DNA of 64,000 bases from Thioclava marina (GTDB lineage Bacteria > Pseudomonadota > Alphaproteobacteria > Rhodobacterales > Rhodobacteraceae), in NCBI RefSeq assembly GCF_002020135.1, contig NZ_MPZS01000001.1, positions 992,001 through 1,056,000 on the forward strand. Reading direction: 5' to 3'. Each line of letters starts with the position of its first letter. Positions within the stretch are counted from its first letter, which is position 1. The position numbers and the translations under genes were made by a program. The notes under the pieces were generated by a model that was not told where the DNA came from, searched no databases, and saw only the letters and a list, made by a program, of their open reading frames with translations. Of the stretch, positions 41,408-48,272 are shown piece by piece.

Positions 41408-42553
41408 CTAGCCCAGCAGATCGCGGGCGATGCGCTCAAACAGATGCGCGCCGGTGCCGATCAGGTCATCGGGGAAATCGTAATCGGGATTGTGCAGCGC
41501 GGGGGCGTCCAAGCCGACGCCAAGGCACATCATCGCCGATTTCGCCCCATGCCCGAACAGTCCGAAATCCTCCGAGGCGCGCATCGGCACGCCCTCTTCG
41601 CCATGCGCGATGCCAAGGCTGTCCATCGCCTGCCGTGCGATCCCGACCGCCTCCGCCGCGTTGACCGAGGCCGCGAAGCGGTCATGCTCTTCGATCTCCA
41701 GACCCAGCCCCGCAGTCTTAGCCTCCTCAGCCACCCGCGCGCGGATCTCGGCCTCGAGCGCGGCAAGGCTGTCATCGCCGCCCGTGCGCAAGGTCGCGTA
41801 AAGCACGCCCTCCCCCGGTGCGATTCCGAAGGTAGGTTCCCCCACCGACAGATGGGTCAGCGTCACGAGGCGGAACGCATCGTCCAGATCGCCGCCCGGA
41901 CCCAGCGCCTCCAGCACCGGCGCAAGGCGTGCGAAGACAGGGAGCGGTGAGCGCCCTGCTCCGGGATCGGCGGCATGGGCGGTCTTGCCCGAAAGCGTGA
42001 TCTTCAGCCCGACCGAGGCGCAATTCATCAGCCCCCGCTTCGTGCCAACATAGCCACGCGGACGCCCCGGCAGCCCGTGGATCGCGAAGGCGAAATCGGG
42101 GGCGATGCGGGCAAAGTTCGGATCCTCGATCACCGCGCGCGCGCCTGCGCCCGTTTCCTCGGCGGGCTGGAACAGCACGATCACCCGCCCCTTTGCGACG
42201 GGTTTGCGCGCGATCAGACGCGCCAGCCCCATCAGCATCACCATATGCCCGTCATGGCCGCAGACATGCGACACACCGGGGCGCTCGGAGACCCACTCGA
42301 CATGGGGATCTTCCGCGATCGGCAGCGCATCAAGCTCGGCGCGAAAGAGCACCGCAGGGCCCGGCTCACCGCTGTCGAAAACCGCCGCAACCCCATGCCC
42401 GCCGATCCCGGTGATCAGTTCGGACGGGTTCAGCGCGCTCAGCTCCGTCGCGATCCGGCGGGCGGTCTCCACCTCCTGCCCCGAGACCTCGGGCGCGCGG
42501 TGGAGCGCGTGGCGCAGCGCGGTCAGCTCGACCAGATCGGCATTCCCCAGCAT
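41408..42553 (-). CDS. M20D-family amidohydrolase (hippurate hydrolase-like)
   Basis: 381 residues from the ATG at 42553; a GTG one codon earlier is an alternative. Metal and catalytic motifs of the M20D group are seen: VCGHDGHMVMLMG, the general-base region QPAEETGAGA and MRASEDFGLFG. These enzymes cleave N-acyl amino acids, hippurate or IAA conjugates. The start overlaps the stop of the luciferase-like gene by 1 base (TGATG), so they form an operon. The substrate cannot be told. Confidence 0.88.
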   Translation of the reverse strand: MLGNADLVELTALRHALHRAPEVSGQEVETARRIATELSALNPSELITGIGGHGVAAVFDSGEPGPAVLFRAELDALPIAEDPHVEWVSERPGVSHVCGHDGHMVMLMGLARLIARKPVAKGRVIVLFQPAEETGAGARAVIEDPNFARIAPDFAFAIHGLPGRPRGYVGTKRGLMNCASVGLKITLSGKTAHAADPGAGRSPLPVFARLAPVLEALGPGGDLDDAFRLVTLTHLSVGEPTFGIAPGEGVLYATLRTGGDDSLAALEAEIRARVAEEAKTAGLGLEIEEHDRFAASVNAAEAVGIARQAMDSLGIAHGEEGVPMRASEDFGLFGHGAKSAMMCLGVGLDAPALHNPDYDFPDDLIGTGAHLFERIARDLLG

Positions 42554-43548
42554 CACCCCTCCTGCAGCTCGCGCAGCACCTCGGCCCCGATCCCGAAGGA
42601 CCGGATCCGCGCGGCCGGATCGTGGATCATCCCCGTCACCATCAGCTCGTCGGGCTGGTAACGCTCGATCAGCACGGCAAGCTGCGTGCGGATCGTCGCG
42701 GGCGAGCCCGTGGCCGAAACCGAGAGCGCCTGCTCGGCCTGCGCCAGAACCTGCGTGGGAATGCCTGCACCCGGATCATGGCTCGGGCGCGGCAGTTTGC
42801 CGGGCTTACCCATGCGCAGCCGCGCGAACCCCATCAGATGCGAGGAGCGCAGATAGGCGGCCTCCGCATCCGTCTCGGCCGCGAACAGCCCCGCCGCCAT
42901 CATCGCATAGGGTTGCGAGAGATGCTCGGACGGGCGGAAGGTCGCGCGATAGGTGGTGAGCGCCTCTTCCAGCATCGCCGGGGCGAAATGCGAAGCGAAG
43001 GCATAAGGCAGCCCGAGATAGGCGGCGAGCTGCGCCCCGAAGAGGCTGGAGCCGAGAATCCAGACTGGCACCTTGCTGCCCTGCCCCGGGATCGCGCGCA
43101 CGCGGGCATCCTCGGGGCCTTCGGCAAGGAAATCCATCAGCTCGACCACGTCATCGGGAAAGCCATCCGCCGGCGCCATATGCCGCCGCAGCGCCCGCGC
43201 CGTCGCCATGTCGGTTCCGGGCGCGCGGCCCAGCCCGAGGTCGATCCGGCCAGGATGGAGCGCCTCGAGCGTGCCGAACTGCTCGGCCACGACAAGCGGC
43301 GCGTGATTGGGAAGCATGATGCCGCCTGCGCCCACGCGCATCCGCCGCGTCGCGCCCGCGATATGGCCGACGACCACCGCAGTCGCCGCACTCGCGATGC
43401 CGGGAAAGTTATGATGCTCGGCCAGCCAGTAGCGGTGATAACCGGCCGCCTCCGCCGCACGCGCGAGATCGGTGCTGTTGGCCAGCGCCTCGGCCGGGCC
43501 GCCGCCTTCGGGAATGGGCGAGAGATCGAGAAGGGAGTAACGTTTCAT
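42553..43548 (-). CDS. Luciferase-like monooxygenase (LLM) family oxidoreductase
   Basis: 331 residues from the ATG at 43548 ([15 protein letters not shown]); the frame is open far upstream but that part lies antisense to the M24 gene. Motifs of the group 1 LLM family are clear: [23 protein letters not shown] near residue 35 and [21 protein letters not shown], then [12 protein letters not shown]. It should use FMNH2 or F420-like flavin; in this YwqI/YhbW-like subgroup substrates are unknown. It diverges from the M24 gene. Confidence 0.88.
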
Positions 43549-43731
43549 CAGGCCTCCGGGGGTCTCCGGGAATTCGCTCTCAGGGGTTTCAGAGACGCGC
43601 GCCGCTGTCAATCGGCGCGGCTGCGCGGCATCGCACAGCCCGCCCGCCCCCGCGCCATGCTCGATCCGGCTTTGCCCTTGACCTCCCCCGCAGGCCCGTC
43701 CCACCCTGCGCGCAAGCGACAGGAGAAGCCG

Positions 43732-44916
43732 ATGCCCATCACCAACGCCCCTTTCAGCCAGACCGAATATGACCGCCGGATCGCATTGGTGCGCGCCGCG
43801 ATGGCCGAACGCGGGATCGAGATCCTGTTCGTCACCAACCCCTCGAACCAGTTCTGGCTGACGGGTTATGACGGCTGGTCCTTCTACACCCATCAGGGTG
43901 TGATCCTGCCGATGGAGGGCGCGCCCTATTGGTGGGGCCGCTTCATGGATGCCAATGGCGCACGCCGCACCGTCTGGATGGAGGAGGAGAACATCCTCCA
44001 TTACAACGACGCGATGGTGCAGTCGGATGTGATGCATCCGATGGAAGACCTCGCCTCGCATCTGCGCATCATGGGCTATGGCAAGGCGCGGATCGGGGTC
44101 GAGATGGAGACCTATTTCTACACCGCCAAAGCCCATGCCGTTCTGACCGACGGGTTGCCTGAGGCCGAGTTGAACGACGCGAGCGTGCTGGTGAACTGGC
44201 AGCGCCTGATCAAGTCGGGCGAGGAGCTGGCCTTCATGCGCCGCGCCGCGCGGATCTCCGAACTGGTGATCTCGCGCGCGATGGAGCTGGCCGAGCCGGG
44301 GCTGCGCAAGCACGATCTGGTGGGAGAGCTCTACAAGACCGCCGTGCAGGGCGAGGAAGACAGCTGGGGCGATTACCCCGCGATCGTGCCGATGCTGCCC
44401 TCGGGCCCCGATGCCTCCGCCCCGCACCTGACCTGGAACGGTGAAGCGTTGAAGGCGGGTGAAGCCACTTTCGTCGAGCAATCGGGCTGCTATCGCCGCT
44501 ATCACGCGCCGCTCTGCCGGACCGTGTTCCTCGGCAAGCCCCCGCAACACATGATTGATGCAAGCCAGGCCCTGACCGAGGGGCTCAATGCCGGGATCGA
44601 GGTTGCGCGCGCTGGCAACCGCGCCTGCGATATCGCGCGGGCGCTGAATGTCGAACTCGCGAAAGTCGGAATCGAACGGCCCAACCGCGCGGGCTATGCG
44701 GTGGGCTGCTCCTACCCGCCCGATTGGGGCGAGCACACGGTGTCGATCCGCGACACCGACGAGACGATCCTGCAACCCGGCATGACCTTCCACTTCATGC
44801 CCGGCCTCTGGATGGACGACTGGGGGATGGAGACGACCGAGACCATCCTGATTACCGAGAACGGTCCGGCCGAGCCGCTGTGCAAGGTCGAGCGCAAGCT
44901 CTTCATCAAGGACTGA
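43732..44916 (+). CDS. M24-family hydrolase of the ectoine hydrolase (DoeA/EutD) type
   Basis: 394 residues from the ATG at 43732 with AGGAG upstream. N-terminal [14 protein letters not shown] and C-terminal [15 protein letters not shown] and [14 protein letters not shown] are stretches I recognise from ectoine hydrolases DoeA/EutD. In ordinary M24 peptidases two Asp bind metal within V-D-x-G...D-x-T-R-T; here these positions are Glu249 and Pro260, so the metal site is lost, as in creatinase and DoeA. Ectoine hydrolase opens ectoine to N-acetyl-diaminobutyrate. The ArgE-like gene follows by 2 bases. No other classical ectoine genes are in the window, so a related substrate is possible. Confidence 0.8.
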
Positions 44917-44918
44917 CG

Positions 44919-46073
44919 ATGCGGCTCGACACCACCCGCGCGATCCTCTCGGATCTGATCGGCTTTCCGTCGGTCTCTTCGGACACCAACCTGCCGATCA
45001 TCCACTACATCGCCGACCGGCTGGAGGCGGCGGGCGCGGCTGTCGAGGTGATGATGGACCCAAGCGGTCACAAGGCGAACCTCTTCGCCACGCTGGGCGA
45101 GGCGCGCGATGGCGGGCTGGTGCTCTCGGGCCATTCCGACGTGGTGCCGGTCACCGATCAGGACTGGACGAGCGATCCCTTCACCATGACCGAGCGCGAC
45201 GGCAAGCTCTACGGGCGCGGCGCCTGCGACATGAAAGGGTTCATCGCGGCCTGTCTCGGCTCGCTCGATCTGCTGGCCGAGGCCGCACGGACCCGCCCGA
45301 TCCATTTCGCCTTCACCCATGACGAGGAGGTCGGCTGTCTGGGCGCGCAGGAGCTGGTGAAGATCCTCGCCAAGCGCCCCGTCAAACCCGCGCTGTGCAT
45401 CATTGGCGAACCGACCTCGATGCAGGTTTTCGACGGCAACAAGGGCTGCTGCGAATATACCGTGCGTTTCGAGGGACGCCCGGGCCACAGCTCCGCCCCC
45501 GACAAGGGCGTCAACGCGGTCGAATACGCCGTGCGCTACATCAACCGCCTCTTCGAGCTGCGCGCCGAACTGGTGAAGCGCTGCCCCGAGGGCTCGCGCT
45601 TCGACCCGCCACCGACGACACTGAACGTGGGCGCCTTGCGCGGCGGGATCTCGCATAACGTTATCGCGCCGCGTGCCGAGCTGAACTGGGAAATACGCCC
45701 GATCAACGAGGCCGATATGCGCTTCGTGAAAGAGGAAATCGCGAGTTTCGTCGAGGACACGCTCCTGCCCGAGATGCGCGCCATCGCGCCCGAGGCCGGA
45801 ATCTCCACCGAGACGATCGGCGAGGTGGTGGGGCTCGAGCCGATGGACGAGAACGCCGCGCGCGATCTGGTCTTCGCACTCACGGGGCAGAACCATGCGG
45901 GCTGCGTCGCCTTCAACACCGAAGCCGGACTGTTCCAGTCGATCGGGATGGATGCGGTGATCTGCGGGCCGGGCTCGATCGAGCAGGCGCACAAAGCCGA
46001 CGAGTTCGTCTCGCTCGACCAGATGTCCCAGGCGCTGGCGATGATCGGGAGGCTCGCCAGCGCCCGGAGCTAG
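44919..46073 (+). CDS. ArgE-like M20 deacetylase (acetylornithine deacetylase family)
   Basis: 384 residues from the ATG at 44919. M20A/ArgE motifs are present: [32 protein letters not shown] and the dimerisation-domain region [12 protein letters not shown]. The family removes acetyl from N-acetylornithine, but being 2 bases behind the DoeA-like gene suggests that it deacetylates that enzyme's product (such as N-acetyl-diaminobutyrate), replacing the AstE-type DoeB. True arginine synthesis is an alternative; in alphaproteobacteria that step is usually done by ArgJ, which argues against it. Confidence 0.85.
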
Positions 46074-46079
46074 CCGTTC

Positions 46080-47270
46080 TTACGCGGCGGCTTTCTGTGC
46101 AGGCGCGGCCGTCTCGCGGTAATGCGCCTGCGCGGCGGCAACGCCGCTGCCCAGCTCTACCGGCAGCCCCAGATCGGCCATCGCCATCTCGGCGGTCGCC
46201 AGACCCGAGAGCGCCATGACATCGGTCATCAACCCAAGGTGCCCGATCCGGAACACCTTGCCCGCGACATCGCCCAGACCGCCCCCGAAGGCCACACCAT
46301 AGGTATTGAGCGCCTGCGCCACGATCCGGCCCGCGTCGAAGCCTTCGGGCGCGCGCACGGCACTGACGCTGTTGGAATAGAGATCGGGCGAGACCGCGCA
46401 GAGCTCCATTCCCCAGGCCGAGACCGCGCGGCGCACGCCCTCGGCGATGCGGGCATGGCGGGCGAAGACGTTTTCCAGCCCCTCGCCCAAGAGCATGTCG
46501 CACGATGCTTTCAGCCCGTTCAGCAGCCCCACGGGCGGCGTATAGGGGAAGCCGTTGGCCGCGTAGCCCGCCTGCATGTCGCGAATATCGAAGAAGCAAC
46601 GCGGCAGTTTCGCGCGCTGAACGGCGGCGAGCGCCTTTTGCGAGAACCCGGTGATCGCGAGGCCCGGCGGCAGCATGAAGCCCTTCTGACTGCCGGTAAC
46701 GGCCACGTCCACGCCCCAGTTATCCATCCGGAAATTCATGGACCCGATCGAGCTGACCCCATCCACGAAGAACAACGCCGGGTGGCCCGCCGCATCCATC
46801 GCGCGCCGGATGCCCGCGACATCCGAAGTCACGCCGGTCGCGGTCTCGTTATGGGTCGCCAGCACCGCCTTGATCTCGTGGCCCTTGTCGGCGGCGAGGA
46901 TCTCGGCGAAGCGGTCCACCGGGATGCCCTCGCCCCAGTTCACCGTGACCTGCTCGACCACCAGCCCGTAGCGCTGGCACATGTCGATCCATTTATGGCT
47001 GAACATCCCGTTGCGACAGGCAAGAACCTTGTCGCCGGGCGAGAGCGTGTTGGTGATCGCGGTCTCCCAGCCACCCGTGCCGGTCGCGGGGAAGACGAAA
47101 GCCTCGCCGGTCCTGGTCTTGAGCACCTTCTTCACGCCGTCCAGCGCGGGGTGGATGATATCGGCGAAGCCGGGGCTGCGATGGTCCATCGTCGGGATAT
47201 CGACGGCCTTGCGCAGGCTTTCGGGAATATTGGTCGGGCCCGGAATGAACACGGGGTTCAGATGGATCAT
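46080..47270 (-). CDS. bhcA: Class V aminotransferase, BhcA-like (aspartate-glyoxylate aminotransferase)
   Basis: 396 residues from the ATG at 47270 (MIHLNPVFIPGPTN); 12 codons upstream lack a site. PLP lysine is Lys196 in VTGSQKGFMLPPG, and FVDGVSSIGSM contains the Asp that binds the cofactor ring. The stretches TGTGGWETAITNTLSPGDKVLA and FRIGHLGLMTDVMALSG fit the glyoxylate-accepting class V group, and I judge it closest to BhcA of the beta-hydroxyaspartate cycle, which makes glycine and oxaloacetate from aspartate and glyoxylate. The divergent IclR gene fits bhcR. However bhcB, bhcC and bhcD are not next to it, so alanine/serine/ureidoglycine-glyoxylate transaminase remains possible. Confidence 0.78.
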   Translation of the reverse strand: MIHLNPVFIPGPTNIPESLRKAVDIPTMDHRSPGFADIIHPALDGVKKVLKTRTGEAFVFPATGTGGWETAITNTLSPGDKVLACRNGMFSHKWIDMCQRYGLVVEQVTVNWGEGIPVDRFAEILAADKGHEIKAVLATHNETATGVTSDVAGIRRAMDAAGHPALFFVDGVSSIGSMNFRMDNWGVDVAVTGSQKGFMLPPGLAITGFSQKALAAVQRAKLPRCFFDIRDMQAGYAANGFPYTPPVGLLNGLKASCDMLLGEGLENVFARHARIAEGVRRAVSAWGMELCAVSPDLYSNSVSAVRAPEGFDAGRIVAQALNTYGVAFGGGLGDVAGKVFRIGHLGLMTDVMALSGLATAEMAMADLGLPVELGSGVAAAQAHYRETAAPAQKAAA

Positions 47271-47394
47271 GACGCCTCCTCCTCTGGCTGGGACAAGACG
47301 TATCACGTGCGGGCGGGACCGGGTATTTTTACGAAAAGCCGCAGCCGCAGTGCAGAAAATCCAAAGTTTCGATGCTGCTCCAAGGCGTTACGTT

Positions 47395-47409
47395 TTTCAT
47401 ACAGTGAAA
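47395..47409. promoter_or_regulatory. Candidate IclR operator in the bhcA-like / iclR gap
   Basis: TTTCA-TACAG-TGAAA is a perfect five-base-arm inverted repeat in an AT-rich stretch of the 195-base divergent gap, 57 bases from the regulator start and 125 bases from the aminotransferase start. IclR proteins bind palindromes of about this size. Confidence 0.5.
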
Positions 47410-47465
47410 TACATTTTTGTTTTATACGTGTTAAAAAGGATTTTCTCTGTCCGGGAGGCGAAACG

Positions 47466-48272
47466 ATGAGCACAGCACGCCGCAAGGGCCGCCCGCGCGG
47501 GTTCAATACCGAACCGGGCCAGGGCACGATCCAGGCACTCAACCGGGCGCTCGATGTGCTCGACCTGCTCTCACGCCACGAGGGGCTGAGCCTGAGCGAG
47601 ATCGCGCGCGGCCTCGGCCAGTCACCCGCCACGATGCACCGGGTTCTGGCAACGCTCCACGCCCGCGATTTCGTCGAGACCAGCCCCGAGGGGCAGGACT
47701 GGCATATCGGCCCCGCCGCCTTTCGGATCGGCTCGGCCTTCCTGCGCCACACAAATGTTTTCGAGCGCGCCCGCCCCTTCATGCAGGAGCTGATGCAGGT
47801 CACGGGCGAGACCTCGAACCTCGGGGTGGAGCGCGCGGGTCAGGTGCTGTTCACCGGGCAGGTCGAGACGCATGAGGCGATCCGCGCCTTCTTCCCGCCG
47901 GGAACGGTCGCGCCGCTGCATGCGTCCGGAATCGGCAAGGCGCTGTTGAGCGGTTACGCGCCCGAGCGGCTGGCGCGGTTCCTCGAGGGTTATGACTTCG
48001 CGCGGTTCACGGAAAAGACGATCGGTGATGCTGCGACGCTGCGCGCCCAGCTCGCGGAGGTGCAAGCGCGCGGTTATGCGATCGACGATGAGGAGCGCAC
48101 CGTGGGGATGCGCTGCGTCGCCGCCCCGATCTTCAACTTCCACGGTGAGGCGGTGGCCGGGATTTCCGTCTCCGGCCCGGTGCAGCGGATGGGTGAGACG
48201 CGCCTGCCCGAGATCGGCGCGGCGGTCACAAAGGCCGCGCGCGCCGTCACGCGCCAGCTCGGCGCGGGCTGA
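47466..48272 (+). CDS. IclR-family transcriptional regulator (BhcR-like)
   Basis: 268 residues from the ATG at 47466 with GGGAGG upstream. After a basic arm (RRKGRPRGF) comes the winged helix (IQALNRALDVLDLLSRHEGLSLSEIARGLGQSPATMHRVL), then the IclR ligand domain with LHASGIGKALLSGY and GMRCVAAPIFNFHGEAVAGISVSGP. Its place divergent from the BhcA-like gene is the arrangement of bhcR-bhcA in Paracoccus, where the regulator responds to glyoxylate. Ligand unproven. Confidence 0.88.
   Translation: MSTARRKGRPRGFNTEPGQGTIQALNRALDVLDLLSRHEGLSLSEIARGLGQSPATMHRVLATLHARDFVETSPEGQDWHIGPAAFRIGSAFLRHTNVFERARPFMQELMQVTGETSNLGVERAGQVLFTGQVETHEAIRAFFPPGTVAPLHASGIGKALLSGYAPERLARFLEGYDFARFTEKTIGDAATLRAQLAEVQARGYAIDDEERTVGMRCVAAPIFNFHGEAVAGISVSGPVQRMGETRLPEIGAAVTKAARAVTRQLGAG

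Follow-up and report, generated by a model that had tools for sequence, protein, structure and literature searches.

The 64,000-nucleotide stretch of the Thioclava marina genome analyzed here, hereafter the window, contains a block of six genes between positions 41408 and 48272, coding for an M20D amidohydrolase, an LLM oxidoreductase, an M24 protein, an ArgE-type M20 protein, BhcA and BhcR. Two of them, both on the plus strand, are the subject of this report: the gene for an M24-fold protein of the DoeA/EutD type (43732–44916, 394 amino acids) and that for an ArgE-type M20 protein, a proposed N-acetyl-L-2,4-diaminobutyrate deacetylase (44919–46073, 384 amino acids). As a preliminary description of this DNA had noted, the ArgE-type open reading frame starts 2 bases after the stop codon of the M24 gene. 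Its view of the entire block as a single catabolic unit does not hold, since neither the M20D and LLM genes nor bhcA/bhcR are conserved with the pair. We propose instead that positions 43732–46073 very probably constitute a two-gene unit for the degradation of ectoine, a salt protectant, with an ArgE-type M20 enzyme in place of DoeB.

In a profile search, the top family for the M24 protein was ectoine_eutD (TIGR02993, E = 2e-162), and its top PDB match by sequence was DoeA from Halomonas elongata (6twk/6twj), with 209 of 394 identical residues (53%). Its AlphaFold model (predicted local distance difference test score 90) superimposed on substrate-bound DoeA 6twk with a template modelling (TM) score of 0.95–0.96 and a root-mean-square deviation of 1.5, whereas creatinases and prolidases did not exceed 0.84 on the query-normalized score; identity in the structure alignments was 52–53% to DoeA versus 16–22% to creatinases and prolidases. 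The M24 protein was also placed inside the DoeA/EutD set in a tree whose outgroup was a single distant M24 paralogue. From these sequence and model comparisons, the M24 protein is predicted to be an ectoine hydrolase of the DoeA/EutD type; the possibility of it grouping with another family, raised in the preliminary description, was thus settled in favor of DoeA rather than creatinase or the prolidases.

The loss of both Asp metal ligands, which had been presented as a distinctive trait, is real but is not a peculiarity of this protein. Glu249 (codon at 44476–44478) and Pro260 (codon at 44509–44511, the site of the second Asp ligand) replace residues that are Asp in metal-dependent M24 enzymes; both are the same in DoeA, as are Tyr322 and Met356, and in the six sampled proteins partnered with DoeB. 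Among the ArgE-partnered proteins, the Glu was found in 87 of 88 and the Pro in all 88, and both positions are among the 101 residues scored as invariant across the two partner types. Counting along the sequence-to-structure alignment, Glu249 corresponds to Glu255 of DoeA, which Mais et al. 2020 reportedly identified as the residue forming the covalent intermediate. The sole exception at the Glu position is an ArgE-type M24 copy (L039:7990-9171, genome G227) with Ala at this site and an internal TGA; this copy is probably decaying, and G227 has a second EutD-like gene.

The ArgE-type protein belongs to family M20 and contains the conserved motifs of the family, passing models NF005710 (452 bits) and TIGR01892, acetylornithine deacetylase (369.4 versus a cut-off of 297.7 bits), while its structural model matched Escherichia coli ArgE 8uw6 with a TM score of 0.86. 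Its gene is a conserved partner of M24. Among 80 relatives, consisting of loci from named genomes (the wider sample comprised 120 loci), the gene next to M24 was ArgE in 63 cases and DoeB in none, and the adjacency is kept across six or more families. The M24 genes of DoeA/EutD kind in this bacterial family form two sets, followed 3′ by either DoeB/EutE (L062–L066 and L073) or an ArgE-type gene, with that of the window belonging to the second. The ArgE-partnered M24 proteins formed one clade (Shimodaira-Hasegawa-like approximate likelihood ratio test support of 99, from a quick tree search whose support values are less certain than those of a careful one), and the ArgE and DoeB labels needed a single change on the tree. 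Likewise, DoeB was found within 1.5 kb in none of the 109 genomes with an M24 match of at least 58% identity, a line chosen for convenience and not a measured boundary, and 107 of them had no DoeB over the cut-off; among the matches listed below 58%, DoeB was adjacent in 19 of 41. The tree of the ArgE side was dominated by very long branches to other M20 proteins, and we therefore do not claim a single origin for it. In the 3.65-Mb host genome of the window, a search of the whole genome with the DoeB/EutE model (TIGR02994) retrieved no protein at E ≤ 0.001. The earlier suggestion that an ArgE-type enzyme replaces DoeB is, hence, well supported by the tree, synteny, the absence of DoeB and the linkage to ectoine genes described below.

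Three observations concern the spread and surroundings of this clade. Eight Roseovarius loci (L114, L117, L119, L120, L121, L128, L132 and L148) contain an M24 gene of the same clade with neither ArgE nor DoeB beside it. A gene for a GntR-type regulator, matching none of the NCBIfam families at E ≤ 1e-30, lies 3′ of the ArgE-type pair in 28 of the 80 loci (for instance, L040:5766-6479) and possibly takes the place of EnuR. The pair is patchy within Thioclava, because genome G255, of the same genus, had no M24 match at E up to 1e-80.

Genes for ectoine metabolism frequently accompany the pair in relatives. EutB and EutC were present in 21 of the 63 ArgE-type loci, EhuB in 10, and an aminotransferase at least 70% identical to the reference in 35; the clusters of relatives also include EhuBCD and DoeC/DoeD-like genes. 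Representatives of EutB, EhuB and EhuC from these clusters exceeded the curated cut-offs, and that of EutC was over NF006141 and slightly under TIGR02992 (448.7 versus 471.65). The most telling evidence on the substrate comes from Thioclava dalianensis (L076) and strain GH2-2 (L087), in which ectABC-ask and a divergent MarR-like gene are immediately followed by the pair. Additionally, ectABC-ask in G162 (L035) and ectBC-ask in Falsiruegeria (L090) are within around 8 kb of the pair.

The T. dalianensis pair is located between the MarR-like gene, next to ectABC, and a gene for a binding protein (L076:4396-11347). In the genome of the window, ectABC-ask and this MarR-like gene occupy C1:1425382-1429878, and the counterpart of the T. 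dalianensis binding-protein gene comes next; the M24-ArgE pair is absent from the corresponding interval (L184:2383-8161) and sits approximately 390 kb away. Its presence in this interval in one species and absence in the other suggests that the pair moved within Thioclava.

The remaining steps of the route can be assigned to genes elsewhere in the genome. DoeX/DoeC/DoeD-like genes are present away from the pair as an AsnC-aldehyde dehydrogenase-aminotransferase set (G000:C1:299409-302888), showing 61, 72 and 79% identity, respectively, to their counterparts in ectoine clusters, and whose aminotransferase passes PRK07482 (847 versus 687). DoeC and DoeD had been reported missing and the route regarded as trimmed, which is incorrect for the genome because these genes lie outside the window. 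Neither EutB nor EutC appeared over the cut-off in the genome, as seen indirectly through the searches for BhcB and BhcD, and EhuB, the uptake gene covered by a genome-wide search, did not exceed its cut-off either. The genome content thus fits a predicted conversion of self-made ectoine to L-2,4-diaminobutyrate (DABA) and aspartate that includes neither the EutB/EutC module for hydroxyectoine nor Ehu uptake.

These genes, their linkage, phylogeny and residues point to the following route, whose substrate, products and physiological role we infer. The M24-fold enzyme, metal-free like DoeA, would open the ectoine ring through the conserved Glu249 to produce N-acetyl-L-2,4-diaminobutyrate, as suggested by its sequence identity to DoeA, its fold and the aligned residues. 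Instead of DoeB/EutE, the ArgE-type M20 metalloenzyme would then remove the acetyl group to yield DABA; N-alpha-acetyl-DABA differs from the usual ArgE substrate, N-alpha-acetylornithine, in being shorter by one CH2. DABA could either return to ectoine synthesis via the genome's own ectABC or be converted to aspartate by the DoeD-like aminotransferase and the DoeC-like dehydrogenase at C1:299 kb. Since the genome makes ectoine and has no EhuB over the cut-off, the pair would probably allow the cell to turn over its own ectoine when osmotic conditions change, a role already suggested for H. elongata and for the methanotroph Methylotuvimicrobium (Methylomicrobium) alcaliphilum. An ectoine cycle in a producer has been described (PMC3187862), and ectoine degradation regulates the level of ectoine (PMC7192451).

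Several observations weigh against this assignment. The M24 protein scored 540.5 bits with TIGR02993, under the equivalog cut-off for DoeA (613), as did the other ArgE-type members (537.5, 565.6 and 586.8), whereas DoeA (657.5) and three sampled DoeB-type members (625.6, 675.7 and 802.7) passed it. The pair has no ectoine gene as a neighbor in the window, and the pairing with ArgE is not universal, because ArgE and DoeB were both missing next to M24 in 26 of the 120 sampled loci, several of them from Roseovarius. Two genomes (G270 and G013) contain both types of hydrolase, which could have different substrates, and members of the ArgE family act on many acylated amines. For the ArgE-partnered clade, ectoine activity is a prediction. 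An unlikely alternative is that this clade now acts on a related cyclic amidine, or on 5-hydroxyectoine for the most part, with the partner deacetylating another acyl-diamine such as an ornithine homologue. The low TIGR02993 scores, the few genomes that hold both types, N-acetylornithine being the usual substrate of the partner family and the hydroxyectoine genes in one third of the ArgE-type loci (21/63) agree with it. However, the genome of the window retains the pair without EutB or EutC over the cut-off, and its former metal site carries the same residues as that of DoeA. Moreover, because the pair adjoins ectABC-ask in close relatives, another cyclic amidine, as contemplated in the preliminary description, is an unlikely substrate. 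It is very unlikely that the ArgE-like gene simply happens to be 3′ of an ectoine hydrolase gene and in fact encodes a genuine acetylornithine deacetylase used to make arginine. The protein does pass TIGR01892, and E. coli ArgE is the top match of its model, but ArgJ is present in the genome over the cut-off (398 versus 298), so that, judging from genome content, the ArgE-type gene is not needed for arginine. The adjacency to M24 in several families also contradicts a chance arrangement, and without this gene the genome would have no candidate DoeB. We consequently discarded the arginine role on the basis of ArgJ, and the earlier reading of this gene as a catabolic deacetylase survives.

The ectoine-degradation unit should not be extended to the flanking genes. 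Downstream lie bhcA, for an L-aspartate:glyoxylate aminotransferase (46080–47270, minus strand), and bhcR, for an IclR-type regulator (47466–48272, plus strand; NF045644 398.8 bits versus 350 with the start at 47466). The preliminary description was right to identify the former as BhcA-like (NF045640, 744 versus 650 bits), but not to include it in the catabolic block. That M24, ArgE and BhcA form one pathway, with BhcA moving the amino group of aspartate to glyoxylate, is highly improbable. It agrees with bhcA following the pair in both the window and Thioclava sediminum; nevertheless, T. sediminum is the only one of the 80 relatives with this adjacency, and bhcA is convergent with the pair and divergent from its own regulator bhcR. 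The same divergent arrangement occurs in Paracoccus denitrificans, and BhcR responds to glyoxylate (PMC11323563). Furthermore, the DoeC/DoeD-like set at C1:299 kb makes aspartate reachable without BhcA. In the genome, the best matches to BhcB (157 versus 550 bits) and BhcD (123 versus 500) were under the cut-offs, and the beta-hydroxyaspartate cycle accompanying bhcA/bhcR therefore looks incomplete. BhcA was discarded as a pathway member owing to its poor conservation beside the pair and the missing BhcB and BhcD; it may serve elsewhere, such as in the transamination of aspartate and glyoxylate to glycine. On the other side, the minus strand carries the genes for an MsnO8-type LLM oxidoreductase (42553–43548; TIGR03558, 419 bits versus 167) and the M20D amidohydrolase (41408–42556), which overlap by 4 bases and look like a separate operon (41408–43548); the LLM gene adjoins the pair in just one of the 80 relatives. 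We give almost no credence to the M20D enzyme being the real N-acetyl-DABA deacetylase, similar to DoeB2. It was the only protein matching the DoeB2 model (NF038260), and NCBIfam does contain a second pair of models, DoeA/DoeB2. Yet its 180 bits are far under the cut-off of 550, the general amidohydrolase model TIGR01891 scored higher (189.7 versus a cut-off of 153.75), and its gene, co-linear with the LLM gene on the opposite strand, had no counterpart near M24 in the 80 relatives. It was discarded on score and synteny.

The closest known system to the M24-ArgE pair is DoeA/DoeB (EutD/EutE) of H. elongata and Ruegeria pomeroyi. They have in common a metal-free M24-fold hydrolase in which identical residues occupy the lost metal sites, a deacetylase gene directly 3′ of it and, in relatives of the window's pair, the accessory genes EutB, EutC, EhuBCD, AsnC, Ssd/DoeC and Atf/DoeD. 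Conversely, the deacetylase of the window is of the ArgE-type M20 kind and not a DoeB/EutE enzyme, its hydrolase belongs to a separate clade under the curated cut-off for DoeA, and complete clusters often contain the GntR-type gene 3′ of the pair. The replacement of DoeB by an M20 enzyme is not without precedent among the NCBIfam models, because DoeA2/DoeB2 (NF038259/NF038260) names an M24 hydrolase together with an M20-family deacetylase. Nevertheless, the M24 protein scored only 210 with this DoeA2 model (cut-off 575), and DoeB2, an amidohydrolase of the TIGR01891 kind, did not appear in the 25 top-scoring models of the ArgE-type protein. The doeBDAC genes of M. alcaliphilum 20Z also serve for ectoine degradation in a producer without uptake or EnuR genes, and its deacetylase is only 22% identical to DoeB of H. 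elongata (PMC7192451); they differ in forming a single four-gene operon in a gammaproteobacterium. Finally, the deacetylase resembles E. coli ArgE (7rsf, 8uw6) in fold and in the M20 metal and catalytic motifs, but is only 36% identical over the aligned part, is linked to an ectoine hydrolase and occurs in a genome with ArgJ.

The kind of pathway is known, whereas the ArgE-type M20 partner appears to be new. A literature search of limited coverage found no paper pairing ArgE with ectoine hydrolysis, although an earlier description is possible. The pairing is widespread in related bacteria and seems to have been overlooked by published surveys. As far as described in PMC8739950, the data set of Mais et al. 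was built from genomes chosen by a neighboring eutE, and another survey demanded EutD, EutE and EutB (PMC13188858); clusters of the ArgE type would fail both filters because of these requirements. Among 298 genomes of the family, 192 contained an ectoine-hydrolase-like gene and only 39 an EutE over the cut-off. With less assurance than for the two-gene unit itself, we favor a scenario in which a second, non-homologous ArgE/M20 partner took over from DoeB a single time, in the ancestor of a large clade of EutD proteins, becoming the commoner form in the sampled Rhodobacteraceae/Paracoccaceae; having been missed by surveys requiring eutE, marine alphaproteobacterial degraders of ectoine would be undercounted. 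If the ArgE-type partner works as proposed, many marine Alphaproteobacteria annotated as lacking ectoine degradation are probably capable of it. The partner also bears on the mechanism: EutE is thought to aid the release of the product from EutD (PMC8739950), and an unrelated ArgE-type enzyme would therefore directly test whether this help is specific to the deacetylase.

A comparison of the regions 5′ of M24 and ectA for a shared EctR operator revealed no convincing common motif. The only similarity was a 10-mer, CCTTGACCTC, common to the window and T. sediminum, whose M24 protein is the closest relative (92–93% identity). It contains the sequence TTGACC, located 5′ of the M24 start (43678–43683, plus strand), which is a weak candidate for a −35 element.

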